36,243 nucleotides of DNA from Lachnospiraceae bacterium (GTDB lineage Bacteria > Bacillota > Clostridia > Lachnospirales > Lachnospiraceae), in contig JAFWZV010000018.1 in assembly GCA_017517305.1 (NCBI GenBank), forward strand, positions 1 through 36,243. Direction: 5' to 3'. This document shows positions 8,142-24,918 of this stretch, in pieces. The notes below the pieces were generated by a model. It had not been told where the DNA came from and made no database searches. It saw only the letters and a list, made by a program, of their open reading frames with translations. Numbering within the stretch: position 1 is the first letter of the stretch; every line of letters begins with the position of its first letter. The position numbers and the translations under genes are program-made.

Positions 8142-8177
8142 CGTGTTTAACAATATTTATGGAGGTATGTGAACTAT

Positions 8178-8852
8178 ATGGATAGTTTAAAAATATTGGT
8201 AGTAGATGATGAAAGTAGAATGAGAAAGCTAGTTAAAGATTTTCTTGTTAAAAGTGGATATACAGTATTAGAAGCAGCGGACGGTGAAGAGGCTGTTGAT
8301 AAATTTGTTGCAGACAAGGAAATTTCTCTTATTATTATGGATGTTATGATGCCTAAGCTAGATGGATATGAGGCAGCGTCGGAAATAAGAAAGATATCTG
8401 ATATTCCTATTATCATGCTGACTGCAAAAAGTGATGAGAGAGACGAGCTTAAAGGCTTTGAGATAGGTGTGGATGAGTATATTACAAAGCCATTTAGTCC
8501 GAAAATACTTGTTGCCAGAGTTGGAGCTGTTTTGAAACGAAGCAATGTGTCTTCTGATGAGCAAAATCTATCTGTAGGTGGTATCAATATGGATATTGCG
8601 GCCCATCAGGTTTCGGTTGATGGAGAACTTATTGAGCTAAGCTATAAGGAGTTTGAGCTTCTTAATTATTTCTTGGTTAATCAGGGAGTGGCCTTATCAA
8701 GAGAAAAGATATTAAATAACGTATGGAATTACGATTATTTTGGTGATGCAAGAACTATAGACACTCATGTTAAGAAGCTAAGAAGTAAACTGGGAGCAAA
8801 AGGTGAGTATATTAAAACTATATGGGGTATGGGGTATAAGTTTGAGGTATAA
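8178..8852 (+). CDS. OmpR/PhoB-family response regulator
   Basis: The N-terminal receiver domain has the acidic pair in ILVVDDE, the phospho-accepting aspartate in IIMDVMMPKLDG, the conserved Thr in IMLTAKSDE and the Lys in YITKPFSP. The C-terminal winged-helix domain (about 130-224) has ELSYKEFELLNYFL, REKILNNVWNYDYFGDARTIDTHV and a 'GMGYKFEV' end, which is the DNA-binding module of the OmpR group. Two starts are possible: GTG at 8169 is 3 nt from GGAGG, ATG at 8178 is 12 nt away. I prefer the ATG, and the difference is three codons. The partner kinase follows after about 40 nt. The controlled genes are unknown; the lipoprotein at 10424 is a reasonable candidate. Confidence 0.93.
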   Translation: MDSLKILVVDDESRMRKLVKDFLVKSGYTVLEAADGEEAVDKFVADKEISLIIMDVMMPKLDGYEAASEIRKISDIPIIMLTAKSDERDELKGFEIGVDEYITKPFSPKILVARVGAVLKRSNVSSDEQNLSVGGINMDIAAHQVSVDGELIELSYKEFELLNYFLVNQGVALSREKILNNVWNYDYFGDARTIDTHVKKLRSKLGAKGEYIKTIWGMGYKFEV

Positions 8853-8893
8853 TGCAAGGTTATATTTTAAAAATGGTTTTTGAGGTTTAGTTA

Positions 8894-10363
8894 ATGAAGA
8901 TTTCAATAAGAATGAAAATTACATTTATGGTGGTTGCCTTCACGGCCTTTGTAGTTACAGCATCATGGTTTATCTGTAATTACCTGATTAGTGACATTTT
9001 TACAAGTAATCTTAAATCCAACTTAAAAACCACCTATGAATCATGTAATAAAATATTTAAGTCCAATGCGCCTTATGCTGATAGTGGTGATTTGTATGGT
9101 CAAATAGAAAATCCACTGGAAGCAATTGTAATTATTTACGATCCTGTCAACAAAAGGCTTTTTTCTACTATAAATGATGAAAGCCAGATGATGGACAGTA
9201 TGAGTAGAATAATTGAAACCTTGAATAAGTCTCAGGATCAATTAAAGCAAAAACCAGGGGATTATACTATTAAGAGAAATCATGATATTTTAATGAATGC
9301 AGATTATTATGATTTGACAGGAAGATTAGATAATGGATATATCGTTATTATTAGAACTCCTATAGCTCAGATAGAAAGTCTGATTGTTTTGGTTAATGAT
9401 GTGTTTAATACAGTAGCTGTTGGTCTTATTATATTTGGATCTGTGTTTATATTAATATTTAGCAATATTTTTTCCTGGCCTATTAAGGTGCTTAGTAATA
9501 GTGCAAAAAAGATGGCTAATCTGGATTTCTCCGCTAAGGTGCCAGTTGTTACAAAGGATGAGATTGGTGATTTGGCTTATTCTATGAACGCTTTGTCGGA
9601 TAGATTGGAGAGAACTATATCAGAGCTAAAAAGTGCTAATATTGAGCTTTCTAAGGATATAGAGAAGAAGACTCAGATAGATGAGATGCGTAGAGAATTT
9701 TTGTCACATGTATCTCATGAGCTTAAGACACCTATAGCCCTTATTCAAGGATATGCGGAAGGGTTAAAGGACAATCTGTGTGATGACGAGGAAAGTAGAG
9801 AGTTTTACACAGAGGTTATTATTGATGAGTCTATGAAGATGAATACAATGGTTAAGAGACTGCTTACTCTTAATGAGATTGAATTTGGTGGTGTAAAGCT
9901 TAATATAGAGCGTTTTGAGTTAGTTGAATTTCTTAAGGAGATTATTTCTACTAAAAGTCTGCTCCTAGGAGATTCAGGAGCTAAGATAATATTTGAGGAG
10001 AAAGGCCCTTTATATGTATGGGCTGATGAATACATGATAGAGGAGGTATTTACTAATTACTTAGTAAATGCTATTCACTATGTAAAGCCTGATGGTGAGA
10101 TAAGAATATATTTTGAAAAGTATCAAAATTTGGTTAGAATTAATGTGTTTAATGAGGGGGAAAATATTGCCCAAGAGGATATTGACAAGATATTCGACAA
10201 ATTTTATAAAGCTGATAAGGCTAGAACAAGAGAATATGGAGGCAATGGAATAGGTCTATCAATTGTAGCGGCAACTATGGTGGCTCATGGTAAGAACTAC
10301 GGAGTATATAATATTCCTGATGGAGTTGTATTTTATTTTGATTTAGACGCTAATTTGCCTTGA
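8894..10363 (+). CDS. Membrane sensor histidine kinase
   Basis: A 489-residue kinase. Membrane helices lie at about 10-32 and 172-195, enclosing an extracytoplasmic sensor of about 140 residues with no recognised fold. A HAMP linker follows (about 195-250). The dimerisation/phosphotransfer domain has FLSHVSHELKTP with the phospho-accepting H275. The ATPase domain has the N box (NYLVNAIHYV), a 'FDKFYKAD' F box and GGNGIGLSIV. One deviation is visible: the G1 box normally reading D-x-G-x-G appears as NEGENI. TGAGGT lies 7 nt before the ATG. It is paired with the regulator immediately upstream. Confidence 0.93.
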   Translation: MKISIRMKITFMVVAFTAFVVTASWFICNYLISDIFTSNLKSNLKTTYESCNKIFKSNAPYADSGDLYGQIENPLEAIVIIYDPVNKRLFSTINDESQMMDSMSRIIETLNKSQDQLKQKPGDYTIKRNHDILMNADYYDLTGRLDNGYIVIIRTPIAQIESLIVLVNDVFNTVAVGLIIFGSVFILIFSNIFSWPIKVLSNSAKKMANLDFSAKVPVVTKDEIGDLAYSMNALSDRLERTISELKSANIELSKDIEKKTQIDEMRREFLSHVSHELKTPIALIQGYAEGLKDNLCDDEESREFYTEVIIDESMKMNTMVKRLLTLNEIEFGGVKLNIERFELVEFLKEIISTKSLLLGDSGAKIIFEEKGPLYVWADEYMIEEVFTNYLVNAIHYVKPDGEIRIYFEKYQNLVRINVFNEGENIAQEDIDKIFDKFYKADKARTREYGGNGIGLSIVAATMVAHGKNYGVYNIPDGVVFYFDLDANLP

Positions 10364-10388
10364 TGGAAACTTAATTTAGTGGTAAAAT
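10360..10388 (+). promoter_or_regulatory. Promoter for the lipoprotein-cheV unit
   Basis: TTGATG (10360-10365) overlaps the stop codon of the kinase gene. A 17-nt spacer leads to TAAAAT (10383-10388), which is preceded by TGG (extended -10). Confidence 0.65.
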
Positions 10389-10423
10389 TACTATATGACT
10401 ATGTCAAGAGATGGAGGATATCC

Positions 10424-11260
10424 ATGAGAAGGATAAAGCTTTTATGCAGTATAGTGATTTTATCACTTTTTGCTGTTGGATGTACCAAAACAATTGAATT
10501 AACAGATGAGGAAAGTAAGCTTGTGGCTGAGTATGCTGCAGAGCTGTTACTAAAGTATGATAGGAACAACGATTCAAAATATTACAATGATGAGTATTCT
10601 GATAGGGATCCATATGCTACAACTGAATTTCTGACTACAGAGACACCAGTTACAGAGGAACCGACTACAGAGGCTCCAGTGGTAGAAGAACCTACCACAG
10701 AAGCATCAACTCAGACTGCTGTTGATGGTGAAGGTACAGAGTCTTCTGGTGGTGATTTGGAACAGGAGGGAGTTGTAAACTCTAATGTTAATTCTACTGA
10801 GGATGTATCAGGAATAGTAGCAGACGCAGATAAAAACTATGATTTGGCTACATTTTTAGAAGAGAATAACGTATCTATTAAGTATGATTATTATATGGTG
10901 TTGGATGAGTATCCATCTTATGATAGGGATGGCGTGTTTATAACTATAGAAGCGCCACAGGGGTATAAGCTACTTGTTCTAAAGTTTAAGATTGAGAATA
11001 AAACCAACGAGGACCAGTACATAGACTTGTATAGTAAAGATATCGAATACAAAATAATAGTAGATGATAGCAAGAGCGCGAAATCCATGCTGACCATACT
11101 TATGGATGATCTCTATACTTATGAGGGAACAATTGCGGGAAGTATGTATAATGAAGCGGTGTTACTGTTTCAGATATCAGATGACATTGCACTTAATATA
11201 AAAGATTTAAAGCTAAAGACTATATATAATGGCAATGATGTCATTATTTCATTACAATAG
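10424..11260 (+). CDS. Lipoprotein with Thr/Glu-rich linker and DUF4352-like domain
   Basis: The signal peptide ends in a lipobox AVGC with cysteine 20. A helical stretch is followed by a Thr/Glu/Pro-rich linker (about residues 58-110, with repeated TTE/EEPTTEA units). A C-terminal beta-rich domain (about 150-278) has the look of the DUF4352/DUF5067 immunoglobulin-like group found in Firmicute lipoproteins (YKLLVLKFKIENKT). I chose the ATG at 10424: GGAGG lies 6 nt before it, and it gives a proper signal peptide. It is followed after 17 nt by cheV, so both are probably co-transcribed. It could be the target or an accessory sensor of the two-component system upstream. Function unknown. Confidence 0.85.
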   Translation: MRRIKLLCSIVILSLFAVGCTKTIELTDEESKLVAEYAAELLLKYDRNNDSKYYNDEYSDRDPYATTEFLTTETPVTEEPTTEAPVVEEPTTEASTQTAVDGEGTESSGGDLEQEGVVNSNVNSTEDVSGIVADADKNYDLATFLEENNVSIKYDYYMVLDEYPSYDRDGVFITIEAPQGYKLLVLKFKIENKTNEDQYIDLYSKDIEYKIIVDDSKSAKSMLTILMDDLYTYEGTIAGSMYNEAVLLFQISDDIALNIKDLKLKTIYNGNDVIISLQ

Positions 11261-11277
11261 ATGAGGAGGTAGAATAT

Positions 11278-12189
11278 ATGGATAACAACATTTTATTGGA
11301 AAGTGGTAGTAACGAGCTTGAGGTGCTTGAATTTGTGATTAATGGTAATCACTATGGTATTAATGTAGAGAAGGTAAGGGAAATTCTTACTTATCAGGAG
11401 ATTACACCGGTACCAAATTCTCATCCATGTATTGAGGGTATATTTATGCCTAGAGGTGAGATTATTACAGTTATCGATTTGTTCATGGCCTTAGGGTTTA
11501 CTAATGATAACAAGAAGAATAATTTCCTCATCGTTACAAATTTTAATAATTTGAATATTGCCTTTGATGTTCAGACTGTGCTTGGTATTCACAGAGTATC
11601 TTGGTCAGAGGTTGTTAAGCCAGACGCTACAGTAAGTGGCCCTGGTGTTGGTATTGCTACAGGTATAATTAAGAATAGAGATAACCTATTAATAATTCTT
11701 GATTTTGAGAGAATTGTAGAGGGTATTTGTCCAGAGACAAGTCTTAAGGTATCTCAGATTGAAGGCCTTGAGTCTAGAGAGAGGAATGAGATTCCTATAC
11801 TTATAGCTGAGGATTCCATGATGCTTTGCCAGCTTATTAAGGATTCTCTTAATAGAGCAGGCTATACTAAGCTGACTATCAAGAATAATGGTCAGGAGGC
11901 TTGGGATTACCTCTGCGAGCTTAAGAGAAAAAATGGTGTTGAATATGGTGCTAAGTGTGTTATCACTGATATTGAGATGCCACAGATGGATGGACACAGG
12001 TTGCTTAAGCTTATTAGAGATACAGAGGGCTTAAAGCAAATACCGGTAGTTATTTTCTCATCACTTATTAATGAGGATATGAAGCGTAAGGGAGAGCTTT
12101 TGGGAGCTAACGCCCAGATGACTAAGCCGGAGATTGGAAAGCTCGTTAAGATTCTTGACGAACTTATTGCAAGTCAGATTTACGGATAA
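11278..12189 (+). CDS. cheV: Chemotaxis protein CheV (CheW-receiver fusion)
   Basis: CheV couples chemoreceptors to the CheA kinase through a CheW-like domain and adapts through a receiver domain. Residues ~12-155 are CheW-like (EVLEFVINGNHYGINVEKVRE, then PCIEGIFMPRGEIITVIDL). Residues ~172-300 form a receiver with ED in ILIAEDSMM, phospho-accepting Asp in VITDIEMPQMDG, Ser in VIFSSL and Lys in MTKPE. All key residues are present. GAGGAGGT precedes the ATG. No other chemotaxis genes are in the window, so it is an orphan locus; its presence suggests a motile cell. Confidence 0.95.
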   Translation: MDNNILLESGSNELEVLEFVINGNHYGINVEKVREILTYQEITPVPNSHPCIEGIFMPRGEIITVIDLFMALGFTNDNKKNNFLIVTNFNNLNIAFDVQTVLGIHRVSWSEVVKPDATVSGPGVGIATGIIKNRDNLLIILDFERIVEGICPETSLKVSQIEGLESRERNEIPILIAEDSMMLCQLIKDSLNRAGYTKLTIKNNGQEAWDYLCELKRKNGVEYGAKCVITDIEMPQMDGHRLLKLIRDTEGLKQIPVVIFSSLINEDMKRKGELLGANAQMTKPEIGKLVKILDELIASQIYG

Positions 12190-12258: not shown

Positions 12259-13473
12259 ATGAAACTGCAGGATGTAAATAAGACAAAAGATGATATTAAG
12301 GATATGTATAATACATATTTTTATGAGACCTTTAAAAGGCTTGATTTTATAGCTGAGACAGGCGAAGGCTCATATATTATAGCTGAGGATGGCAAAAAGT
12401 ATTTGGACTTTATGGCAGGTATTGCTGTTAATAGTACAGGACACTGTAATAAGAGAGTTGTAGAGGCTATTAAGGCTCAGTGCGAGACTATGATTCATGC
12501 TTCTAATTACTGCTATACAGTGCCACAGGTTATGCTTGCTGAGCTTATATGTAAAAACATAGGAATGGAGAAGATATATTTCCAGAATTCCGGTGCTGAG
12601 GCCAATGAGGCTATGATTAAATTGGCAAGAAAGTATGGAAAGGATAATTTTGGACCTAATCGCTATAAGATAGTTACAGCATCAAATAGCTTCCATGGAA
12701 GAACATTGGCTACTCTTGCTGCAACAGGACAGCCAGGAACTCCTATTCAGAATAATTATGATCCATTTATACCAGGATTTACATATGCTGAATATAATAA
12801 TCTTCAGTCCTTTATTGATGCCTGTGACGAAGATACTATAGCTGTTATGGTTGAACCTGTACAGGGTGAAGGTGGAGTAATTCCTGCTACTAAGGAGTTT
12901 TTACAGGGACTTAGAAAGCTTTGTGACGAGAAGAATATGCTTCTACTTTTTGACGAGGTACAGACTGGCTGGGGAAGAACAGGAGAGCTTATGGGCTTTA
13001 TGACCTATGATGTAAAGCCGGACTGTGTAAGTATGGCTAAAGCTATGGGTGGTGGAATGCCTATAGGTGCTATGTGTACAAGTGCTAAGCTTGCCTTAAC
13101 CTTTGGGCCAGGGGCTCATGGAAGTACATATGCAGGAAATCCTGTGTGCTGTGCTGCTTCATACGCGCAGATTAGTGAGATTATAGAGGAAAAGCTAGCT
13201 GACAATGCCAAGGAGGTAGGTGCTTACTTTATGGAGAAGCTTAAATCCATACCTGATGTAAAAGAGGTTCGTGGTAAGGGACTTATGATTGGTGTGGAGT
13301 TTAATTCGAATATAGCTAATGATGTAAAATATAATTCAGCTGATGAAGGACTTCTTATGACAGCAGTTCGACCTGCAGTAATTAGATTTGTTCCACCCCT
13401 TAACGTTACAAGAGATGATTGCGATAAGGCATGGGAGATTCTTAATAAGGTTGTTAGTGAGCTTGTGAAATAA
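12259..13473 (+). CDS. argD: Acetylornithine aminotransferase (class III, PLP)
   Basis: ArgD converts N-acetylglutamate semialdehyde and glutamate to N-acetylornithine and 2-oxoglutarate in arginine synthesis. At 404 residues it has the usual length. Motifs include QNSGAEANEAMIKLARKY, NSFHGRTLATLAATGQ, VMVEPVQGEGGV, LLLFDEVQTGWGRTG and the PLP-lysine region SMAKAMGGGMPIGA. The substrate and cofactor pattern (short loops, GSTYAGNP) matches ArgD rather than GabT, but related omega-aminotransferases cannot be fully excluded. AGGGGAA precedes the ATG. No other arginine genes are nearby. Confidence 0.9.
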   Translation: MKLQDVNKTKDDIKDMYNTYFYETFKRLDFIAETGEGSYIIAEDGKKYLDFMAGIAVNSTGHCNKRVVEAIKAQCETMIHASNYCYTVPQVMLAELICKNIGMEKIYFQNSGAEANEAMIKLARKYGKDNFGPNRYKIVTASNSFHGRTLATLAATGQPGTPIQNNYDPFIPGFTYAEYNNLQSFIDACDEDTIAVMVEPVQGEGGVIPATKEFLQGLRKLCDEKNMLLLFDEVQTGWGRTGELMGFMTYDVKPDCVSMAKAMGGGMPIGAMCTSAKLALTFGPGAHGSTYAGNPVCCAASYAQISEIIEEKLADNAKEVGAYFMEKLKSIPDVKEVRGKGLMIGVEFNSNIANDVKYNSADEGLLMTAVRPAVIRFVPPLNVTRDDCDKAWEILNKVVSELVK

Positions 13474-13505: not shown

Positions 13506-13534
13506 GTAAAAACGTTAATTTGAGGAGATATAAA

Positions 13535-14914
13535 ATGACTAGGAAAAATGCATGGAAGACCTATAACAAGAAGCAACTTGGCGAATTAGATAAGTTTTCT
13601 AAGGGATATCTTGAGTTTCTTGATAAGGGTAAGACTGAGCGTGAGTGCGCAAAGGTTATAGTTGATATGGTTAAGGAAGCAGGATATATAGAGCTTGCTG
13701 ACGTAATTAAGAATAAGAAGAAGCTTAAGAGTGGAGATAAGGTTTATTCGGTTTGTATGGGTAAGACAGTTGCCTTATTTAATATAGGTACTAAGAAGCT
13801 GGAAAAGGGTATGAATATTTTAGGCGCCCATATTGATTCACCTAGAATGGATGTTAAGCAGAATCCTTTATATGAGAATGGTGACTTTGCATATCTTGAT
13901 ACTCATTATTATGGAGGAATCAAGAAGTATCAGTGGGTAACTCTTCCATTAGCACTACATGGAGTTGTTGTTAAGAAGGATGGAACAGTTATTGATATTA
14001 ATATTGGTGAGGATGAGAAGGACCCTGTTTTCTGTGTGACAGATCTTCTTATTCATCTTGCTGGAGAGCAGATGGAGAAGAAGGCAGCTAAGGTTATTGA
14101 GGGCGAGAATTTAGATGTTCTCTTCGGTAGCCAACCTGTTAAGGATAAGGACAAGGATGCGGTTAAGGAGAATGTACTTGCTCTCCTTAAGGAAAAGTAT
14201 GACATAGAGGAAGAAGATTTTATATCAGCAGAGATAGAGGTTGTGCCTGCAGGAAAGGCTAGATATGCTGGTATTGATAAGAGTATGATTATGGCATATG
14301 GCCAGGATGATAGAGTGTGTGCTTATACTTCACTTATGGCTATGCTTGAGGTTAATGAGCCAACCAAAACCACTTGCTGCCTTCTCACTGATAAGGAAGA
14401 GATAGGTTCAGTTGGCGCTACTGGTATGCAGTCTAAGTTCTTTGAGAACTGTGTGGCAGAGGTAATGAATGCTATGGGAGAATTTAGTGAAATTTCTCTT
14501 AGAAGATGCTTGGCTGCATCAAGTATGCTTTCATCTGATGTAAATGCTGCATATGATCCGCTTTTTGCCAGTGCATTTGAGAAGAATAACGCATCATACT
14601 TTGGAAGAGGTATGGTATTTAGCAAGTTTACTGGATCAAGAGGTAAATCAGGCTCTAATGATGCCAATGCAGAATATATTGCAAGAATTAGAAAAATGAT
14701 GGATGATGCAAAGATATGCTACCAGACTGCAGAGTTGGGTAAGGTTGACGTAGGTGGTGGTGGAACCATTGCATATATTTTATCCCTCTATGGTATGGAG
14801 GTTATAGATTGTGGAGTTGCAGTGTTAAATATGCATGCTCCATGGGAGATTACATCAAAGGCTGATGTATATGAAACATTTAAGGGATATAAGGTATTTC
14901 TTAAAGAAGCATAA
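13535..14914 (+). CDS. M18-family metalloaminopeptidase
   Basis: A 459-residue cytoplasmic peptidase of the M18 (aminopeptidase I / aspartyl aminopeptidase) family. It removes N-terminal residues from peptides using two zinc ions in a tetrahedral particle. Metal- and active-site regions are visible: ILGAHIDSPRMD (H99 and following Asp), GQDDRVCAY, LLTDKEEIGSVGATG, DVNAAYDP and the C-terminal MHAPWEITSKADVYE. The ATG at 13535 follows GAGGAGA by 6 nt; an in-frame TTG at 13520 lies before that site and is rejected. The hybrid sensor gene starts 20 nt after the stop. Confidence 0.95.
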   Translation: MTRKNAWKTYNKKQLGELDKFSKGYLEFLDKGKTERECAKVIVDMVKEAGYIELADVIKNKKKLKSGDKVYSVCMGKTVALFNIGTKKLEKGMNILGAHIDSPRMDVKQNPLYENGDFAYLDTHYYGGIKKYQWVTLPLALHGVVVKKDGTVIDINIGEDEKDPVFCVTDLLIHLAGEQMEKKAAKVIEGENLDVLFGSQPVKDKDKDAVKENVLALLKEKYDIEEEDFISAEIEVVPAGKARYAGIDKSMIMAYGQDDRVCAYTSLMAMLEVNEPTKTTCCLLTDKEEIGSVGATGMQSKFFENCVAEVMNAMGEFSEISLRRCLAASSMLSSDVNAAYDPLFASAFEKNNASYFGRGMVFSKFTGSRGKSGSNDANAEYIARIRKMMDDAKICYQTAELGKVDVGGGGTIAYILSLYGMEVIDCGVAVLNMHAPWEITSKADVYETFKGYKVFLKEA

Positions 14915-14934: not shown

Positions 14935-17900
14935 ATGAAGATGAAGCGTGTTATCAATAAAATACTTGTATGGACTATGGCATTCCTGATGGTGTGCCTT
15001 GCCTTTGTGCCACAAATTAATGTAGTTGCAAAGGATTCATTTGTATCATCATATATACAGACAGTATATAACCAAAAGAGTGGTATAGGTAGTAATGAGG
15101 TTAACTGCCTATATCAATCCTCTACTGGATACATATGGATTGGTACTGAGGGAGGACTTTATCGTTCAAATGGTTCAAGCTTTCAAAGTATTAATCTGTG
15201 GGATACTGATAGAGCGGATATATACGCCATCAATTCTATAATGCAGGATACTGATGGAAGAATGTGGATATCCACTGATAATTATGGCTTATTCTACATA
15301 GAGGATGGTGTAAGTATACATCTACAAGATGAGTATTATGATGGTGTAAAAGACATATCTGATGTGTGCCAGACTGAATCAGGTACTATATATGTGGCGG
15401 CAGAAAATGGTTTATATACCTGCCAAAAGGATACTGCAGGTACTATGAGATTGTTTCCTTTTGCGGAGAGAAATCAAGGCTATGATATAGTTGATCTAGA
15501 GTCTCAGGGGAATTTGCTTTGGGCTATAACTGGTAATAACGAGGTATTGGTATTTGACGAGACAGGTCTCGTGAAAAACCTTAAGGTAGAGGAGTTTACC
15601 AATGATGATCTTACTTGTTTGGCTAATCTGGCAGGAAGTATATTTATTGGTACATCAGGAAGAACTATAATCAAATATCCTATGATGGATAAGCCGGCTA
15701 CCACACTTACTGCTATGGTAGATGGAATCAATAACATAATGATTGATTCTAATGGTTATGTTTGGATATGTGCTGATAATGGCTTGGGTTATTTCAAAAA
15801 GTCAGATGAATTCGTTAAAATAAATGACTGTGAGATTGATAGCTATCTGTCAGGTATGATTCAGGATTATGAGGGTAATTATTGGGTTGCATCAGATAGA
15901 ATGGGTGTACTGCTTCTTAGCAAGAGCAAATTTACAGATTTTAATATGTCAGTTGGAATGGCAGAGAACATTGTAAATACAGTGTACACCTATAGAAATC
16001 ACAAGTATATAGGAACAGATGACGGACTTATTATTTATGATGCTGCCTACGAAAAGGTAACTAATGAGCTTACAGATTACCTGTCAGGAATTAGTGTTAG
16101 ACATATAGTAAAGGACGATAAGGGGAACCTATGGATTAGTACAGGTCGTGTATATGGTGTGGTGAAGGTTGCATCAGATGGAACAATCACTAATTTTGGA
16201 CGTAATTCAGGAATTCCAAGTATATATATTAATGCTACACTTCCTCTTAAGGATGGAAATATTGCTGTTGCTACAGAAGAAGGTGTGGCAATATTAGACC
16301 AAGAGGGAAAAATTCTAAAAACCTATGGCAGGGAGCAGGAAATTTATAATAATAATTCCTTGTGCTTATATCAGGATAAGAATGGTATGTTATATGTTGG
16401 AACAGACGAGGGTGGACTTTATGTGATTGACTTATCTGATGATGAGATAGTTAATTACACCAGTAATGATGGTCTTAATTCCAACGTAATCACTTCTATA
16501 GATGAGGGGCAGCAGGGACTTTGGATAGCCACTGATAATGGACTTTGCTTCTATAAGGATTCATTTAGAGCTATAAGTAATATAGAGTACACTAATAATA
16601 TATATGATATAGCTATGTATGAGGACTTTATGTGGTTGGTTGGCTCTAGAGGAGTTCTTAGAACCACAGAGGAGGAGCTTCTTGGAAGTAAGGGTATATC
16701 AGGAAGATATTATGACAATAATGATGGTCTTACTAAAACTATAAATACAACTGGTAATGCATATATTGATAAAGATGGTATGCTGTTTATCTGTTGTAAC
16801 GATGGAATATGTACCATGGATACTAAGAATATTCCATATAATCTAGTTGCGCCTAGAATAAAGGTTACAGCTATATCCTTAGATGGAGTTACCTATGAGT
16901 TTGATGACTTAGAGGATGGTCTTAAGGTTAAGAGTGATGTATCAAGAATTACTATAGATTTTGCGGTGTTTAGCTTCTCGAATAGAAGCAACATTCAGGT
17001 TCAGTATTCCTTGATGGGCTTTGATCAAGAACCTATAGTAATTAGTGGAAATGATACTATGCAAGCGGTATATACTAACCTTGATGGTGGTGTATATGAA
17101 TTCGAGGTCAGTGCCTACAATAGTGATGGAACTCCTTGTGAAGCACCTATTTCATTTGTTATTGAAAAGGAAAATAAGCTGACAGAAAGTCCTATGGCAA
17201 GAATAGGAATAATATTTATCTTTGTAACAGCTATAATAGTGATAATTATTGCAGTGTTTGGTGTGAGAAAGATACTTAAGAGTAAGGATAGTGCCTTGGA
17301 GAAGCTTTCTAAGGAGCATGAGGAGGCAGTTAAATCAAGTAGTGCCAAGAACGACTACCTTGCAAATATGAGTAATGAAATCAAAACTCCAATTAATGCC
17401 ATGATGGCTCAAGCCGGAGAACTTCTTGATATGTCAAAGGAGGATGAGGCATATAAGGAAAATATAGAGAATATTCAGCAGATTGGACGAAATGTTATTA
17501 ATAAGGTTGATGATATTATTGTATTAGCCAAGCTTGAGGCTGGAAAATACGAGAAGGTCGAGAAGCCATATTCGGTTACAACTTTAATGTATGATTTATC
17601 AGAGATTGTAATGGAAGACCTTGGGGAAAAGACAGTTAAGTTCTTCGTAGAAATTGGAGAAAATGTTCGAGATAATCTTGTGGGAGATAAGCATAAGATT
17701 AAAGATATTTTAAGAAGATTGCTCAGCAATGCTGTAAGATATACCAAGGAGGGTTCAATAACTCTTTCTGTAGATTGCTATGAGTATCCAGATAAGGCAC
17801 ATTTGGATAGAGTAAACATTGCATTTACAGTGTCAGACACCGGAATTGGTATTCAGGAAGAAAGATTAGATTCCATATTCGAGGTATATAATATTGCTGA

Positions 17901-19224
17901 TAATAAGAGGAATAGCCCACATTCCAGCAATGGAGTTGGTTTAGCTATAGCTAAGGGATTTGCAGAGCTTATAGGTGCAGAGCTTGAGGTTGAAAGTGTT
18001 TACGGAGCGGGCTCTACATTTACCCTATCCTTAGACCAGAAGCTGGCAGATAATATTTCTTCAAATCAGAAGATATCTCGAGTGGAGGAAACTGTATCTA
18101 AGGAGGTTGCAGATAGCTTATGGCTTCCTGATGTACAGGTGCTTCTGGTAGATGATGAAGAAGTTAGTAGACAGGTTGCAATAAAAACCCTCAGCGAATT
18201 CGATATGAAGATAGATGTGGCTACCTCAGGTGTGGCTGCTATTGATATGATAATGAATAAGCAGTACAATGTAATCTTTATGGATCTTACAATGCCAATT
18301 ATGAATGGTGTAGAGGCCATGAAGGAAATTAGAGAGCTAGAAGGCACTGAGTATATGATGCTTCCTATTATTGCAATGGATACAGATGCCATAGAGGAGC
18401 ATGGTCAAAGTCTTATAGAGGAGGGCTTTACAGACAGTGTTGTAAAACCACTAGAACATAGAAGAGTAGCTGCAATCCTTAAGGATTGTCTTCCTGAGGA
18501 TATGATTAAGGAGAAGAGTAGTGAAACAGAGCAACATATCGATAATTCTAGATATAGAGATGGTTTAGTTAAACTTAAGAATACTATAGAAATTGAATAT
18601 GCCATCGAGAAGATTGGTGGAAATATTGATATGTACAATAAGCTTGTAAGTAGCTTCTATAATCATAACACTATCATAATAGATGAGCTCTATGATAAGA
18701 TAGATAAGGACGCGAGAGGCTTTAAGACAAGGATTCACTCTCTTAGAACTAACAGTATTAATATAGGTGCCCTAGAGCTTGCCAAGAAGGCTGCTACCTT
18801 AGAGGCGGCGATTAATATCAATAATAAGGAGTACGTCAAGGATAATCTAGGTGACCTTATGAGTGAGCTTAGAGAGACCTTAGAAAATATCTATGAATAT
18901 CTTACATTTATAGAAGAGGTTTCAGGCTTAAGCGACGAGGAGTATGAGAATAAATACAAGAATCTAGATGAATCTAAGGAAGATGCAGTGATAGATATAA
19001 GCGACATTCCTTCAGATGGAATCTTTGGTGAACTAGAAGCTATGAAGAGAAGTGCTCAGGCTGAGGATTTTACCGAGGTAAACAATGCTATGAACAGACT
19101 GTTATCCTATGAGTACGAGGGCGAGGATAAGGAGTTTATGGACGCCTTATATGATGTGGTAAGCTCAGGTGATAAGGATGCTGTAGTGGAGCTTGTTGAT
19201 ACCTATATGGCACTTAAGATGTAG
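14935..19224 (+). CDS. Hybrid sensor: propeller, Y_Y_Y, kinase lacking His, receiver, Hpt
   Basis: About 1,429 residues. A signal peptide (about 1-35) is followed by two-component propeller (Reg_prop) repeats (about 50-640; e.g. GYIWIGTEGGLYR, GNLWISTGRVYG), a Y_Y_Y domain (about 680-745), one membrane helix (about 752-778), then a kinase core. The phosphotransfer motif reads YLANMSNEIKTPINAM: the usual His is Asn814. The ATPase domain looks intact (LLSNAVRYT, DTGIGIQEE, NGVGLAIAK). The receiver has MDLTMP with Asp1117 and VVKP, but the conserved Thr/Ser is Asp (IIAMDTDA). An Hpt-like domain follows with RIHSLR (His1268), and a short helical C-terminal domain. There is no DNA-binding domain. 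The start is uncertain: a GGGTGG site lies 10 nt before ATG 14935; GTG 14920 and ATG 14941 are alternatives. Confidence 0.9.
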   Translation: MKMKRVINKILVWTMAFLMVCLAFVPQINVVAKDSFVSSYIQTVYNQKSGIGSNEVNCLYQSSTGYIWIGTEGGLYRSNGSSFQSINLWDTDRADIYAINSIMQDTDGRMWISTDNYGLFYIEDGVSIHLQDEYYDGVKDISDVCQTESGTIYVAAENGLYTCQKDTAGTMRLFPFAERNQGYDIVDLESQGNLLWAITGNNEVLVFDETGLVKNLKVEEFTNDDLTCLANLAGSIFIGTSGRTIIKYPMMDKPATTLTAMVDGINNIMIDSNGYVWICADNGLGYFKKSDEFVKINDCEIDSYLSGMIQDYEGNYWVASDRMGVLLLSKSKFTDFNMSVGMAENIVNTVYTYRNHKYIGTDDGLIIYDAAYEKVTNELTDYLSGISVRHIVKDDKGNLWISTGRVYGVVKVASDGTITNFGRNSGIPSIYINATLPLKDGNIAVATEEGVAILDQEGKILKTYGREQEIYNNNSLCLYQDKNGMLYVGTDEGGLYVIDLSDDEIVNYTSNDGLNSNVITSIDEGQQGLWIATDNGLCFYKDSFRAISNIEYTNNIYDIAMYEDFMWLVGSRGVLRTTEEELLGSKGISGRYYDNNDGLTKTINTTGNAYIDKDGMLFICCNDGICTMDTKNIPYNLVAPRIKVTAISLDGVTYEFDDLEDGLKVKSDVSRITIDFAVFSFSNRSNIQVQYSLMGFDQEPIVISGNDTMQAVYTNLDGGVYEFEVSAYNSDGTPCEAPISFVIEKENKLTESPMARIGIIFIFVTAIIVIIIAVFGVRKILKSKDSALEKLSKEHEEAVKSSSAKNDYLANMSNEIKTPINAMMAQAGELLDMSKEDEAYKENIENIQQIGRNVINKVDDIIVLAKLEAGKYEKVEKPYSVTTLMYDLSEIVMEDLGEKTVKFFVEIGENVRDNLVGDKHKIKDILRRLLSNAVRYTKEGSITLSVDCYEYPDKAHLDRVNIAFTVSDTGIGIQEERLDSIFEVYNIADNKRNSPHSSNGVGLAIAKGFAELIGAELEVESVYGAGSTFTLSLDQKLADNISSNQKISRVEETVSKEVADSLWLPDVQVLLVDDEEVSRQVAIKTLSEFDMKIDVATSGVAAIDMIMNKQYNVIFMDLTMPIMNGVEAMKEIRELEGTEYMMLPIIAMDTDAIEEHGQSLIEEGFTDSVVKPLEHRRVAAILKDCLPEDMIKEKSSETEQHIDNSRYRDGLVKLKNTIEIEYAIEKIGGNIDMYNKLVSSFYNHNTIIIDELYDKIDKDARGFKTRIHSLRTNSINIGALELAKKAATLEAAININNKEYVKDNLGDLMSELRETLENIYEYLTFIEEVSGLSDEEYENKYKNLDESKEDAVIDISDIPSDGIFGELEAMKRSAQAEDFTEVNNAMNRLLSYEYEGEDKEFMDALYDVVSSGDKDAVVELVDTYMALKM

Positions 19225-19344: not shown

Positions 19345-19438
19345 AGGTGCATATATGTAAGAGCAATGTAGCTGGTGGTAAAGTATGTATGAAAGGCAGA
19401 GGCGTGTCTGTCTGGGAAGGCTGGAGGGTTATAAAATT

Positions 19439-21898
19439 ATGGATATTAATAAAATTTTAATTCAGTATGATGGAATGTTTGGTAGCTATGACTTAGGGGA
19501 TATTGAAGAGTTTTTGGTAGATAATATTGAAATGGCAAAGGATGAGGGGGATACATCAAGCCAGTTTACCTTACTTAATGAGATGATTGGCTTTTGCAGA
19601 GATACAACGCAGCAGGACAAGGGTATTATGTATTGTCAGCAGTTAACCACTCTTATGGGAGACATGGGGATAGCAGGCACATTTGAATATGCTACAGCAC
19701 AGCTAAATATAGCTAATGCTTATCGTGCCTTTGGACGTTCAGATGAGTCTATGGAATGTTATAAGGAAACCTTGGAAATATATAATGCAATGCTTGATGA
19801 CAATGATTTTGGTTATGCAAATCTATATAATAACTGGGCTCTTCTCTATCAGGAGATGGGAGATTTTGAGAGTGCAAGAGATTGCTTATACAAAGCACTT
19901 AGGGTAGTAGATTCTTATCAGGAGGCAGAGGTTCAACAGGCTATAACTAGAACAAATCTTGGAAGTAGCTTGGTTGCTATAGGAACCAAGGAAAGCTGTG
20001 ATGAAGCGGAAAAGCTTTTGCTTCGTGCTTTAGCCATATTTGAAAGAGATGGAGGGAAAGATTTTCACTACAATGCAACCTTGGTTGCCATTGGAGATCT
20101 TATGTGCAAAAAGAAATGCTATGTTGAAGCAGTGGATTTCTATGAAAGAGGCTTGGGCGAGTTAGAAAAGCATGTTGGTAGAAATGAGAATTATGACAGA
20201 GTTAAGAAAAAGCTTGACTATGCCATCAAGAAGTATGAGGACAGAGAAACTGAATCTATGCTAAGAAAGAGCATGGCTGTAGAAGAGAAGGAATGCTTAG
20301 ATATAGAAGAAGATAGTGTAGTTGAGGTTGATGATAGTAGTGCTTGGAAGAATAATATGGATCGAAGCAGAGCCTTTTATGAAAACTACGGCAAAAAGAT
20401 GATTCATGATAGCTTCCCTGAATATGAGGATAAGATTGCTGTTGGAGTGGTTGGTATGGGCTCAGATTGCTTTGGCTTTGATGATGAGATATCTACTGAT
20501 CATGATTATGATATAGGATTTTGTATGTGGCTTACACCAGAGGTTTATGATGAAATTGGTGAACAGCTTATAATGGCTTACAAGGATTTGCTTAAAAAGG
20601 TTGGCGTAGATGAGGACGATTATGGAAGATTAATAGAGCGAAGAGGAGTATTCGAGATTAGAGATTTCTACCGAGAATTCTTAGGGGAAGGCTATAATTT
20701 AGGTGGTGCAATATTCGGATATGAGGATTATCAGTTGGCTGCAGCTACAAATGGAGAGGTCTTTAGAGATGATTTAGGAGAGTTCACTGAAGTTAGAAAT
20801 AGACTGCTAGAATACTATAATGACAGGGCTTGGGGACTTAAACTCGTAAAGGCAGTCCATAATTTCTCACAGTATGGACAGAGTAATTATGCTAGAATGA
20901 TGGCGAGAAAAGATTATGTAACTGCAAATATTTGCATAGGAAAAGCCGTGGAAAGTGCTATGGATTTAACATATCTTCTTGCTAGATCATATGCTCCTTA
21001 CTACAAATGGAAATTTAAGGGCTTAGAGAAGCTAATTAATGAGAGAAAATGGATTAATATAGATAAACTGTTTGAATTAAGAGGGCTTCTTGTTGAACTG
21101 TCAGACCTTCCAGGTCAGGCAAAGGCTTGGGAGGGGGTAAAATATGACCCTTCAGTGGTGAATTACAATGACAAGAAGCTTGTGCTTATAGATAAGATCG
21201 CGGAAGCTTTGCTGTCTGAGCTTAAGAGCAAGGATTTAGCCACAGGTGATGAGCTATTTTTACAGTGTCACGAGCCATACATAACCAGACATTTGCGTAA
21301 TAGTAAAGTTAAGCAAATTATTGAAATGGAATGGGAAATGTTTGACAAGGTAAAAAATGAAGGTGGAAGAGCAGACTGCCAGGATGACTGGAATACATTT
21401 TCTATAATGAGGAAAAGTCAGTATATGGCATGGACTAGAGAACTTCAGGAAAGCTACCTTACAGATCTGGAAATAGCAAGCTCAAAGGGCTGGAATATGA
21501 TTATGGAAAAGTACGCTAGAATGATGGAGAGCACCTGCCCTGCTAAGTATGATGAGCTGAAGAAGGATTTGCCTAGACTGACAGAGGATAGAATCGCCAT
21601 ACAGGAAAGTATCATTGCCATCCAGGTAGAGTGGATGGAGAGCTTTGCTGCTCAGTATCCTAAGATGGCTGGAAATTCTAGAAGCATCAGAACTCATACT
21701 GATAATGAATATAACACCTCCTACGAGACCTACCTTAGAGGGGAGATAAGCACTTATTCAGAGAGAACCTTTGTACTGTATGGAAAGTTTATAGCTAATC
21801 TCCATAGGCAGGGAAAAAATCTGGCGTATATGATTATGAATAATACTGCAAGGCTGTATGGTTACATGGATGTAGATGATGCGGAGAGTAGGTTGTAG
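19439..21898 (+). CDS. TPR - DUF4037 (nucleotidyltransferase-like) - DUF4125 fusion protein
   Basis: About 819 residues in three parts. Residues ~30-270 are tetratricopeptide-type helical repeats (NLYNNWALLYQEMGDFESAR, TRTNLGSSLVAIG patterns). Residues ~310-600 match DUF4037, a nucleotidyltransferase-like family; the motif GMGSDCFGFDDEISTDHDYD (about 339-358) carries the G-S and the acidic residues expected for metal binding. Residues ~620-810 match DUF4125 (IEMEWEMFDKVKNEGGRADC, WNTFSIMRKSQYM). ATG 19439 is preceded by GGAGGG at 10 nt; the frame is open upstream to 19385 but lacks a ribosome site there. It ends 2 bp from the end of a convergent gene. Substrate and role are unknown. The enzyme-like motif and TPRs suggest nucleotidyl transfer onto a protein or small molecule, by inference only. 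Confidence 0.85.
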   Translation: MDINKILIQYDGMFGSYDLGDIEEFLVDNIEMAKDEGDTSSQFTLLNEMIGFCRDTTQQDKGIMYCQQLTTLMGDMGIAGTFEYATAQLNIANAYRAFGRSDESMECYKETLEIYNAMLDDNDFGYANLYNNWALLYQEMGDFESARDCLYKALRVVDSYQEAEVQQAITRTNLGSSLVAIGTKESCDEAEKLLLRALAIFERDGGKDFHYNATLVAIGDLMCKKKCYVEAVDFYERGLGELEKHVGRNENYDRVKKKLDYAIKKYEDRETESMLRKSMAVEEKECLDIEEDSVVEVDDSSAWKNNMDRSRAFYENYGKKMIHDSFPEYEDKIAVGVVGMGSDCFGFDDEISTDHDYDIGFCMWLTPEVYDEIGEQLIMAYKDLLKKVGVDEDDYGRLIERRGVFEIRDFYREFLGEGYNLGGAIFGYEDYQLAAATNGEVFRDDLGEFTEVRNRLLEYYNDRAWGLKLVKAVHNFSQYGQSNYARMMARKDYVTANICIGKAVESAMDLTYLLARSYAPYYKWKFKGLEKLINERKWINIDKLFELRGLLVELSDLPGQAKAWEGVKYDPSVVNYNDKKLVLIDKIAEALLSELKSKDLATGDELFLQCHEPYITRHLRNSKVKQIIEMEWEMFDKVKNEGGRADCQDDWNTFSIMRKSQYMAWTRELQESYLTDLEIASSKGWNMIMEKYARMMESTCPAKYDELKKDLPRLTEDRIAIQESIIAIQVEWMESFAAQYPKMAGNSRSIRTHTDNEYNTSYETYLRGEISTYSERTFVLYGKFIANLHRQGKNLAYMIMNNTARLYGYMDVDDAESRL

Positions 21899-21900
21899 GT

Positions 21901-23772
21901 TTACTCCCTAAAGTAAAATACCTCCCCTCTTGGTCTAAAAGGAAGTCTTGCACCCTGTGGCAGAAGAAAAGCGTGTTCATGCTTGATATCTAGATGATCT
22001 TCGATTTCGCCATCAGTGATTATAAGGATAGGGCCATCCTTAGGAAAATCCTTTGCTGATTCAAGTGCATCAATGCCGGGCTGAAGGATTGTGCCACCTC
22101 GTCCCTTTACAGCTACGCGACCAGCTATATCTTCTGGGGAGATGTAGCCAGCATCATAGGCGGCAGCATCACAGAATATAACTCGGACGAAGCAAACATC
22201 GTGAGATACGGAATAGCTTGCGATAGTGCCCAATGCTTTGCCTATGGTTTTTGCATCCATAGAGCCTGATGTGTCTATGACAACGCCAAAGGTACGGCTG
22301 TCAGTTGGAATGTCGGCAGGGGTGTATCTTGGACGTGGTATATCAGGAGTAGATGCCTGTCTACGGCTTGGCCTAGAGTAGGTTCTGTGTTTTTCTAAGG
22401 GGGCAAAGTATATATCAAACCATTTAGCTAGAGCGACATCCCATGGAATTGGTGGCATAGCTAGAGAACGGATTTCTTCAATTAAACCGGCAGGGATTAG
22501 GCCTCTGCCGGTGGACTGATGATATTCTAATCCTTGGCTAAGGGCGTTTTTGCAGAATTCATCAAGTGTTACATTTCCCATACCTTCTTTTCTGTATTTA
22601 TCTCCTATAATATCACCTTTTCCAAAACCACGAAAGGTGCCTAATTTCTCGTATTTTCTCATATTTTCCAGCAGGATATCATATATGGATTCCGCAGATA
22701 AACCACTAAGCTTAGCGTCGTATAGAAGTCCGTCTGCTGGCATAACACCAACCTGTAATTCCACTAACCAGCTGTTTATTACGAAGTCACAGGCTACATT
22801 CCATAGATATTGGTTACGACCATTGCATCGGTTGTGGTGTTGCAAGCCAGCGTGAAGGTATTCGTGCGCTAGTACAAATTTCCATTCTTCCTCGGATAGG
22901 TTACTGTTTGGATTCAAATAGATTTCACCATCAACAACATCGATAGCAGCTATATGAATATCATTTCTGTTACAGTAGTTTGTATCCTCTATTATTTTGA
23001 AATGTGATGCCAGACCGCCTAGAAGAGGATAGTGGTCTATAAACCAATTGGCAGCTCTTTGCCCTATTGTTAGAGAAAGATGTCGCTTGGGGCTGTGTCC
23101 TCCAGCTTCACTTATGACATCAGATACTGAATTAGCTAATGCGATGGAAAAGTTTCTAGTAAATGTATTGTATTGATTTTTAGCCTTGTTATAAACTAAA
23201 GGTTTGTCAAGTCCCTTCATATCTAGTGTGCCCATTGCAGCAGTTCCATAGTGATTATGTGTTGCAGAAATCTTTTGGTCACAAAGGGATTGGTATATTT
23301 TTGCTTCGTCGTTTGATGTTCCAGAGATAATATTTACATTGTCATTATTAATTGGCTGACCAAATTTTATATCAGCTAAAAACTTAGTTATATAAATATC
23401 ACATGCCATATTCCAAAGGGCAATGTCACATTCGATTTTCTTCTCCTTTGTACCATCGGAGAGTGTGATGCAGTAGCCTGGCATTTTTTCGGCATCAAAA
23501 TGCCCAAATGCCAAGTGAAGAATATTATGTGCTAACACATAGGACCATTGTTTTGGTGACAATGTATAATCTTCATTTGCTTTAATTGTTCCATCAGAAT
23601 GGACTATGCACATGGTATTAGTACCAATGTCCGTTTTATTGGCAATATGTATTATCGGTGTACAACCTTTGAAAAGAGGGTGCTGATATATGATTGATAT
23701 ACCGCTTTGTAAATTCTCTCTATTTATTTCTTTTTGTGTTTTCTTCTTCTCTTTATTTCCTTTTTTTGCCAT
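21901..23772 (-). CDS. VWA protein with duplicated metallopeptidase-like (DUF2201-type) module
   Basis: A 623-residue protein, no signal peptide. It contains two copies of a zinc-peptidase-like unit. Copy 1 (about 50-140): WSYVLAHNILHLAFGH, then LWNMACDIYIT. Copy 2 (about 272-345): WKFVLAHEYLHAGLQHH, then LWNVACDFVIN. Copy 2 has an intact HExxH (303-307); copy 1 has Asn in place of Glu (82-86), confirmed in the codon (AAT). The C-terminus (about 493-620) is a von Willebrand A-like domain with MIDAS motif DTSGSM (500-505). This fits the VWA-like/DUF2201 family that pairs with MoxR ATPases. AGAGAGGTGG precedes ATG 23772; an in-frame GTG at 23784 overlaps that site. It lies 26 nt after its MoxR partner. 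Confidence 0.9.
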   Translation of the reverse strand: MAKKGNKEKKKTQKEINRENLQSGISIIYQHPLFKGCTPIIHIANKTDIGTNTMCIVHSDGTIKANEDYTLSPKQWSYVLAHNILHLAFGHFDAEKMPGYCITLSDGTKEKKIECDIALWNMACDIYITKFLADIKFGQPINNDNVNIISGTSNDEAKIYQSLCDQKISATHNHYGTAAMGTLDMKGLDKPLVYNKAKNQYNTFTRNFSIALANSVSDVISEAGGHSPKRHLSLTIGQRAANWFIDHYPLLGGLASHFKIIEDTNYCNRNDIHIAAIDVVDGEIYLNPNSNLSEEEWKFVLAHEYLHAGLQHHNRCNGRNQYLWNVACDFVINSWLVELQVGVMPADGLLYDAKLSGLSAESIYDILLENMRKYEKLGTFRGFGKGDIIGDKYRKEGMGNVTLDEFCKNALSQGLEYHQSTGRGLIPAGLIEEIRSLAMPPIPWDVALAKWFDIYFAPLEKHRTYSRPSRRQASTPDIPRPRYTPADIPTDSRTFGVVIDTSGSMDAKTIGKALGTIASYSVSHDVCFVRVIFCDAAAYDAGYISPEDIAGRVAVKGRGGTILQPGIDALESAKDFPKDGPILIITDGEIEDHLDIKHEHAFLLPQGARLPFRPRGEVFYFRE

Positions 23773-23798
23773 ATGAATAACCACCTCTCTAAGACAAA

Positions 23799-24860
23799 TT
23801 AATTGCTTTGTATAAGTCTTGGAAGGTCACGAACTATTTCAATCATAAACCATTCTGGTAAAACCTTTCCTTCATCAGCAGAGACTACCATTTGAGCAAT
23901 TTCATAGCTTATGCTTGATAGCTCCTTGATAAGGGCTTTTGCGCGATGAACAAGATATTGACCATCCTTTCCAAGATTCTGTTTGTTTTCAGGCAATTCA
24001 TGGAGTAGCTTTGCGCGGAAGGATTGTGAGATAAAGTATAATACATCACGCTCCTCAGGCTTGGATGGCCATTTTGCTTCGCCCTTAATTATGTCTGTAA
24101 GTAGATGTGTATTACCAAGTTGTTTAACAAAAGCCATAAACATTCCTGCATGACTAGCAGAAATGCATCCATATGTAATCATTTTTAATGTTGTATCGGG
24201 TATATTATTTGTCTCGGCGCCATACTCCTTTAAGGCATCACTAAGCATATGCCAGGATCGGGGGGTAGAGTAAGGCTCTTCGGTCTTAGGTGGTTCCGAA
24301 AAGAGATGATCAGGTCTTTGAGTTATATAATTGATAACCCAAGGGTGTAAGCCTTCTTCGTAAGCCCAATTAAGCCACTCTTTTGGATCTGCCTTTAACT
24401 GAACATGAAACATACGGTTAATGAGAGCAGAGGACATAGTTTTAACAATTGCTGAATCCTGTGCTCTGTTGCCGGCACCAATAACTATACTTCCTTTAGG
24501 TAAGTGATATTCGCCGATTCTTCGTTCGTGAATTAAGCTATAGAATGCTTTTTGTACTTCCTGAGAGCAGGCATTAAGCTCGTCTAAGAAGAGTACATAG
24601 GGTTCCTTTCTTGCAATCATCTTAGGTGGAAGAAATGTGCTTACATCGTCCTGGATTTGCGGTATACCGATAATATCCTCAGGAGCAAGCTGACTTCCTA
24701 AAAGTGATACACAAGGGAGTCCCACCTCATCTGCAAATTTTTCCACAAGAGCAGATTTGCCTATGCCGGGAGCACCCCATATAAATACAGGACGAATAGT
24801 GGCGACATTTAATAAAATATCTAATAGTTCACTTTGAGTAACTGATATAGGTAAATTCAT
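23799..24860 (-). CDS. MoxR-type AAA+ ATPase
   Basis: A 353-residue AAA+ ATPase. Walker A is GAPGIGKS (29-36), Walker B VLFLDELN (89-96), sensor 1 GAGNRAQD, and an arginine finger region ALINRMFHV is present. MoxR ATPases act with VWA-domain proteins as chaperones that insert metals or remodel protein complexes. ATG 24860 has AAAGGAAA 8 nt upstream; an in-frame ATG at 24893 lacks a site. It is the first gene of a two-gene minus-strand operon with the VWA-metallopeptidase protein. Membership of the MoxR group is inferred from motifs and from the partner. Confidence 0.93.
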   Translation of the reverse strand: MNLPISVTQSELLDILLNVATIRPVFIWGAPGIGKSALVEKFADEVGLPCVSLLGSQLAPEDIIGIPQIQDDVSTFLPPKMIARKEPYVLFLDELNACSQEVQKAFYSLIHERRIGEYHLPKGSIVIGAGNRAQDSAIVKTMSSALINRMFHVQLKADPKEWLNWAYEEGLHPWVINYITQRPDHLFSEPPKTEEPYSTPRSWHMLSDALKEYGAETNNIPDTTLKMITYGCISASHAGMFMAFVKQLGNTHLLTDIIKGEAKWPSKPEERDVLYFISQSFRAKLLHELPENKQNLGKDGQYLVHRAKALIKELSSISYEIAQMVVSADEGKVLPEWFMIEIVRDLPRLIQSN

Positions 24861-24918
24861 ATATTTGTTTTCCTTTCTGGTGGCTTCGTACATAAAAATA
24901 TATCTAGTCTAGGGGGCG

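Follow-up and report, generated by a model that had tools for sequence, protein, structure and literature searches.

Pseudo-histidine kinases are a known class, and few HisKA proteins without the acceptor His have, to our knowledge, been studied. In RcsD (YojN) of enterobacteria the acceptor His is missing. This pseudokinase sits in the membrane and combines a pseudo-histidine kinase domain with an Hpt that hands phosphate on to RcsB (PMC3762810). RetS of Pseudomonas aeruginosa is a hybrid that is unable to autophosphorylate and whose receiver Asp is phosphorylated by another kinase, with REC2 accepting phosphate from the His of GacS (PMC5992135). In DivL of Caulobacter, the acceptor His is replaced by Tyr across homologues and the other boxes are kept (PMC4211667). 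Moreover, CCNA_03265, also from Caulobacter, is described as a hybrid kinase without the His in which the receiver Asp is retained, and a relocated His, feeding through an Hpt or a heterodimer are the alternatives offered for it (PMC11481889). On a wider scale, the acceptor His is reported to be missing in 0.9 percent of HisKA domains (722/76,471; PMC12632262).

The window analysed here is a stretch of 36,243 nucleotides from a Lachnospiraceae bacterium (assembly GCA_017517305.1, contig JAFWZV010000018.1), and its ORF P0001 (14920..19224, plus strand) encodes a hybrid sensor that can be compared with these proteins. Like RcsD, it is a membrane protein in which a pseudo-histidine kinase domain is combined with an Hpt; unlike RcsD, it also carries a propeller sensor and a receiver in which Asp and Lys are conserved. 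It is not a member of RcsD by the NCBIfam model, which it matches at 88.7 bits where the cut-off is 634. A relay likeness to RetS is proposed, but in RetS the H-box HExxT is intact and the G boxes are missing, whereas P0001 has lost the His and keeps G1, with the H+4 Thr variable in its orthologues; P0001 also has an Hpt, which RetS, as far as we know, lacks. DivL, in which the acceptor His is likewise replaced and the other boxes are kept, combines PAS sensors with a plain DHp-CA module and belongs to alphaproteobacteria, whereas P0001 adds REC and Hpt. P0001 shares with CCNA_03265 the lost His and the retained receiver Asp; in the passages of PMC11481889 that concern it, CCNA_03265 is one protein, is not presented as a conserved lineage, and no propeller sensor is mentioned. 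The propeller hybrid two-component sensors (L061-L066, L072-L087) align with P0001 over the full length at about 25-31 percent identity, and each of these 22 homologues has His where P0001 has Asn. In Bacteroides, sensors of this kind go by the name HTCS. Among the matches listed in literature searches, no publication on the P0001 lineage was found. The P0001 clade is a new lineage of pseudo-histidine kinases: the loss of His has become fixed in five genera and goes together with the loss of a second catalytic residue, and REC and Hpt are conserved. This family separates what evolution keeps in an apparently dead hybrid kinase from what drops out.

Domain layout and the acceptor position

The product of P0001 has 1434 aa when counted from the GTG start, and an ATG at residue 6 is also possible and would give 1429 aa; the length of 1,430 residues in the first-pass annotation is corrected to these values. 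All parts lie on the plus strand, in the order propeller sensor, Y_Y_Y, transmembrane segment, HisKA (with Asn), HATPase_c, REC, Hpt and a C-terminal helical region. That is to say, the Reg_prop, Y_Y_Y, TM, HisKA, HATPase_c and REC series of a Reg_prop hybrid sensor is present in sequence, as called by Pfam with the membrane segment judged by eye. The Reg_prop propeller repeats, presumed to be an extracellular sensor, occupy 15037..16959 (about residues 40-680, boundaries by eye; Pfam 1.7e-23 over the whole protein, best stretch 55-78). They are followed by the Y_Y_Y domain at 16975..17133 (residues 686-738; Pfam 1.4e-7), a putative transmembrane segment at 17203..17265 (a hydrophobic stretch at about residues 762-782), the HisKA (DHp) domain at 17344..17544 (Pfam 809-875), the HATPase_c (CA) domain at 17683..18039 (residues 922-1040; Pfam 8.1e-20), the REC domain at 18139..18480 (residues 1074-1187; Pfam 6.5e-18) and the Hpt domain at 18592..18924 (about residues 1225-1335). 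The C-terminal helical region after the Hpt (18937-19221, about residues 1340-1434) is predicted with confidence towards its end, and no Pfam match above the cut-off was found in it. A fold model of 651 residues of P0001 has a pTM of 0.40, so the arrangement of the domains relative to one another is uncertain.

The HisKA domain is still recognised by Pfam, at 35.2 bits against a cut-off of 26.9. It had been noted from the sequence that Asn stands in place of the phospho-accepting His, and this is confirmed: residue 819 is encoded by AAT at 17374..17376 (plus strand), in the context LANMS-N-EIKTP. In the source genome, 26 HisKA domains were matched and aligned, and His is found in 25 of them, with P0001 as the sole exception. 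The alignment of orthologues that had been proposed to see whether Asn is fixed gives Asn in 95 and Thr in one (L055) of the 96 orthologues covering the site, and His in none, so that the objection that orthologues might mostly keep His falls away; the acceptor His that a catalytically complete kinase has in its H-box is absent from all 96. The Asn codons are a mixture of AAT (58) and AAC (37), which indicates that Asn is retained while the codon drifts. In addition, an Asn-bearing orthologue is present in two database records of Lachnospiraceae bacterium.

Orthologues were called by full-length similarity rather than by reconciled trees, and the alignment holds 99 rows: 37 of the source genus (source protein included), 59 of genus g152 and one each of g36, g65 and g123. 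L021 and L022 (which match G015 and G005 in length and identity) and L067 (which repeats L056) were left out of the counts. Three of the 99 rows are without a residue at 819, namely L143 (half of a split gene) and L144 and L145 (contig ends). At the L143 locus of genome G468, the orthologue is divided into ORFs of 802 and 695 aa with the break near residue 750-765, and the Asn lies in the second ORF.

With regard to distribution, a full-length or near full-length orthologue with at least 47 percent identity occurs in 37/37 genomes of the source genus, and in genus g152 one is present in 59 of 61 genomes; the two genomes in which it was missed are 65 and 73 percent complete. A search of the family (396 genomes, 317 genera, E <=1e-140) matched 21 genomes. 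Six of these hold orthologues with at least 44 percent identity (two of the source genus and one each of g36, g65, g123 and g152), and the other 15 hold 16 homologues at 28-31 percent identity, all with His. The class sample of 291 genomes, searched at E <=1e-160, yielded two matched genomes, both of the source genus, and hence no orthologue beyond the family. At the DNA level, a degenerate pattern for the Asn-type H-box matched 7 of 397 family genomes, of which six belong to the P0001 clade and represent every clade member known among the 397. The idea that Asn-type H-boxes occur more widely in the kinases of this family was rejected, the seventh match (G086) being, by eye, an ORF without kinase features. 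A narrower H-box pattern, which excluded ACG codons and missed the known member G027, matched the source genome alone among 392 genomes of the order and is for these reasons of little weight.

All Asn-type cores form one clade with support 0.998 in a FastTree analysis of 53 Asn-type and 29 His-type cores, for which the Asn-type set was thinned from 96 to 53 at 80 percent identity and columns 800, 819, 822 and 933 were removed. Ten orthologue pairs were compared domain by domain: for each domain with an estimable dS, HisKA and CA included, dN is much the smaller of the two, and many of the dS values are saturated. Since there is a single clade and purifying selection, one ancient and retained loss of His is the simplest account, and P0001 is, as far as sequences can tell, a member of an old hybrid-sensor lineage under purifying selection. 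Sequencing error, a strain lesion or a decaying gene has practically no probability as an explanation: Asn or Thr in 96/96 orthologues refutes it, and the presence of the gene in 37/37 and 59/61 genomes of two genera under purifying selection also stands against it, while the one point in its favour is the single orthologue split into two ORFs.

Other residues of the kinase core

The ATP-binding boxes had been read as intact, and this holds in part. N937 and the G1 box (D973, G975 and G977) stand, whereas the first Asn of the N-box, at position 933, is lost, its place being taken by Arg933 (17716..17718, plus strand). At this position Asn occurs in 0/96 Asn-type orthologues versus 28/29 of the His-type, so the NxxxNA motif is not found with both of its Asn, although the second (N937) is present in 95 of 96 orthologues. 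D973, G975 and G977 are found in every orthologue row with a residue there (G1 Asp and Gly, 96/96). Gly1007 of the G2 stretch is Gly in 34/37 of the source genus and Ser, Asn or His in 49/56 rows of g152. At the H+1 acid (E820) the column reads E 85, D 10 and S 1 of 96; K822 is present in 96/96 Asn-type orthologues; and the H+4 column (residue 823) is composed of T 45, I 29, L 21 and M 1.

The His-type set used for comparison consists of 29 hybrid kinases: seven from the source genome, six homologues spread over four genomes of the genus, and 16 from the family. Their cores were cut out by the string SHEIRTP, so that columns 818-824 are fixed by construction while 800 and 933 are unaffected; the His of these 29 kinases is also seen in BLAST alignments made without that filter. 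Following work on HK853, the transfer-related Asn is taken to be the first of the N-box pair. An N-box Asn and the H+1 acid take part in phosphoryl transfer, and phosphatase activity depends on the residue at H+4 (PMC8292422); metal coordination is typically the task of the second Asn in NxxxNA (PMC10017428). Because Thr occupies H+4 in just 45 of 96 orthologues, a phosphatase role of the DHp domain does not appear to be strictly kept; such a role was considered and set aside, being weakened by Ile, Leu or Met in the other 51.

The suggestion that the protein is a pseudokinase gains support from these columns, the first N-box Asn being lost in 96/96, Thr at H+4 relaxed and His absent in 96/96. 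P0001 probably cannot phosphorylate itself at the usual site, judging from its residues, and with a HisKA domain that lacks His and is kept by selection it falls into the pseudo-histidine kinase class on the combined evidence of sequence, dN/dS, tree and fold model. A viral structure search with P0001 gave generic kinase matches.

One possibility is that P0001 is still half of an active kinase, in which case its CA domain would phosphorylate the His of a partner in a mixed dimer and its REC would then take the phosphate. The retained second N-box Asn, the G1 Asp and Gly and the kept H+1 acid are what such a kinase would be expected to show, but the first N-box Asn is absent throughout and Gly1007 is replaced in most g152 rows, though not in most of the source genus, and this arrangement is regarded as unlikely.

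The main rival to a phosphate relay is action by shape, as in DivL: the dead core would bind a response regulator or heterodimerise with another kinase and alter the activity of its partner, and REC and Hpt would be accessory. DivL itself, with Tyr for His and its other boxes kept, shows weak binding of an ATP analogue and acts without kinase activity (PMC4211667); ChrS and HrrS form a heterodimer, and a pseudokinase variant of ChrS still promotes HrrS signalling (PMC9491836). The CA motifs, largely kept in the P0001 lineage, are consistent with this, as are DivL (4q20) and RetS among the Foldseek matches of the P0001 model, though active kinases match it too. Against a purely conformational role, the conservation of receiver Asp and Lys (96/96) and of the Hpt His (93/95) argues that phosphate chemistry is still in use, and such a role is held to be a genuine but lesser possibility.

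Receiver, Hpt and the proposed relay

The receiver Asp and the Hpt His had been said to remain, and in the orthologues they do. Asp1122 (codon 18283-18285) and Lys1176 are each present in 96/96, and the acidic pair is kept at D1078 (90/96) and D1079 (94/96), which gives the residues of a phosphorylatable receiver. The switch position 1154 departs from Ser/Thr in the source genus, where it is Asp in 34 proteins, Asn in two and Glu in one (n=37, source protein included), whereas elsewhere Ser/Thr accounts for 59/59 residues (56 from g152 and one each from g36, g65 and g123, with three rows gapped). The receiver of the source genus may therefore respond abnormally.

His1273 (codon 18736-18738) is His in 93 of the 95 rows with a residue at the Hpt site and Arg in two orthologues. 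The Hpt of P0001 has no Pfam call, and the NCBIfam alignments that run through it, TorS (793-1322) and ArcB (798-1329), are both below the family cut-offs. PDB sequence matches place H1273 on the HPt His and are weak (E 0.05). The AlphaFold2 model of residues 1205-1434 has a mean pLDDT of 87.6, and its top 21 Foldseek matches in the PDB are HPt proteins, the best with a TMt of 0.87 at 1.6 A and all with E of 0.0076 or weaker; among them is 4euk_B, whose identity was taken from the PDB sequence search. In summary, the region combines a predicted HPt-fold helical bundle with a conserved His.

Since the receiver Asp and the Hpt His are conserved, the reading towards which the evidence leans is that of a propeller-sensor pseudokinase whose REC-Hpt exchanges phosphate with other kinases, so that P0001 would serve as a relay, sink or adaptor gated by its sensor. 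The kinase core would be controlled by the outer propeller and the membrane helix, and it may still bind nucleotide although it has lost both the acceptor His and the first Asn of the N-box. Phosphate could reach Asp1122 or His1273 in trans from other hybrid kinases with a complete catalytic core, or from their Hpt domains, and it would then be passed on or drained. The sequences establish the losses at 819 and 933, the retention of D1122, K1176 and H1273, the single clade and the purifying selection; that the core lacks autokinase activity, can bind nucleotide, takes part in phosphotransfer in trans and is gated by the sensor is what we infer for this protein. Precedents for such a relay are RetS, whose receiver is fed by another kinase, and RcsD, a pseudokinase with a functional Hpt. 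In the source genome, seven hybrid kinases that keep His and also have a receiver-type DxxMP motif are possible donors, and three of the seven have an Hpt-like motif.

Several observations weigh against the relay. The switch residue is other than Ser/Thr in 37/37 proteins of the source genus, Arg stands at the Hpt site in two orthologues, the Hpt is without a Pfam call and its PDB sequence matches are weak, and a relay alone would not need N937, D973, G975 and G977 of the ATP site to be so conserved. The idea of a relay without a kinase is directly testable in a large natural family.

His800 and the gene neighbourhood

His800 (17317..17319, plus strand), in the helix leading into the DHp domain, is specific to the clade: position 800 is His in 95/96 Asn-type orthologues and Asn in one, as against Lys 24, Arg 4 and Ile 1 in the 29 His-type kinases. 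Position 801 is Glu in 91/96 of the Asn-type. Positions 800 and 819 lie on one continuous predicted helix (model residues 2-55) with a pLDDT of about 70. It could be speculated that His800, with Glu801 next to it, stands in for the lost acceptor above the DHp bundle, and the clade-specific His, the adjoining Glu and the helix common to both sites, modelled with modest confidence, would suit this; a nearby substitute His has been proposed for Caulobacter CCNA_03265 too (PMC11481889). However, the two sites are 19 residues apart, or about 28 A along the helix, the HExxT/N-P context is absent at His800, the first N-box Asn is lost, and one orthologue has Asn at 800. In addition, 801 is acidic in 23/29 of the His-type as well, so that Glu801 is not special. 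His800 is also just one of several clade-specific positions, which include D812 (96/96), K822, D864 (95/96; Asn in 27/29 of the His-type) and A870 (94/96; Ser in 29/29 of the His-type), and it may therefore be structural or sensory, serving helix packing or sensing. A relocated acceptor is thus possible but geometrically hard, and it is rated as quite improbable. The fuller version, in which His800 would be phosphorylated instead of the H-box His and a displaced active site would feed the REC-Hpt relay of P0001 itself, is about as improbable; if His800 were used, the active-site arrangement would be a new one.

The gene neighbourhood was compared at 17 of the 99 loci (the source and 16 others), picked for the length of their contigs. 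Upstream of P0001 lie a class-III aminotransferase (12259..13473, plus strand) and an M18 aminopeptidase (13520..14914, plus strand), both called by Pfam, the latter ending 5 bases before the sensor ORF. Each of the two families occurs in 15/17 loci, and upstream aminotransferase and aminopeptidase genes are found in all five genera represented. They are the only neighbours widely common to the source genus and the others, and no universal partner kinase was seen in the 17 neighbourhoods, which also speaks against the relay. A dedicated neighbouring kinase was sought in P0008 and P0009, a pair made up of a kinase and a regulator, and rejected, since the pair lies upstream in 8/9 loci of the source genus and in 0/8 loci of other genera, within stretches of 18-19.5 kb. 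A CheV-like gene is upstream in 9/9 source-genus loci, and a family whose member in one locus looks, by eye, like a pantothenate synthesis gene is downstream in 7/8 loci of the other genera.

Several other genes of the window may be mentioned. The stretch 8169-12189 contains an OmpR-type regulator (by eye), a HAMP kinase, a lipoprotein-like gene and a CheW-REC (CheV-like) gene, which are upstream in the source genus and not kept in the eight loci of other genera. Directly downstream of the sensor, a TPR protein with DUF4037 and DUF4125 is encoded at 19385-21898, followed on the minus strand by a neighbouring pair at 21901-24893, an AAA ATPase and a DUF2201 metallopeptidase/VWA-like protein; a HipA-like protein lies at 29617-30870. 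Elsewhere in the source genome, L010 (G000:C16:56133-58550) is a second membrane sensor with propeller and Y_Y_Y-like parts, 27 percent identical to P0001 over residues 18-821, and its output looks, by eye, like an HD-GYP domain rather than a kinase.
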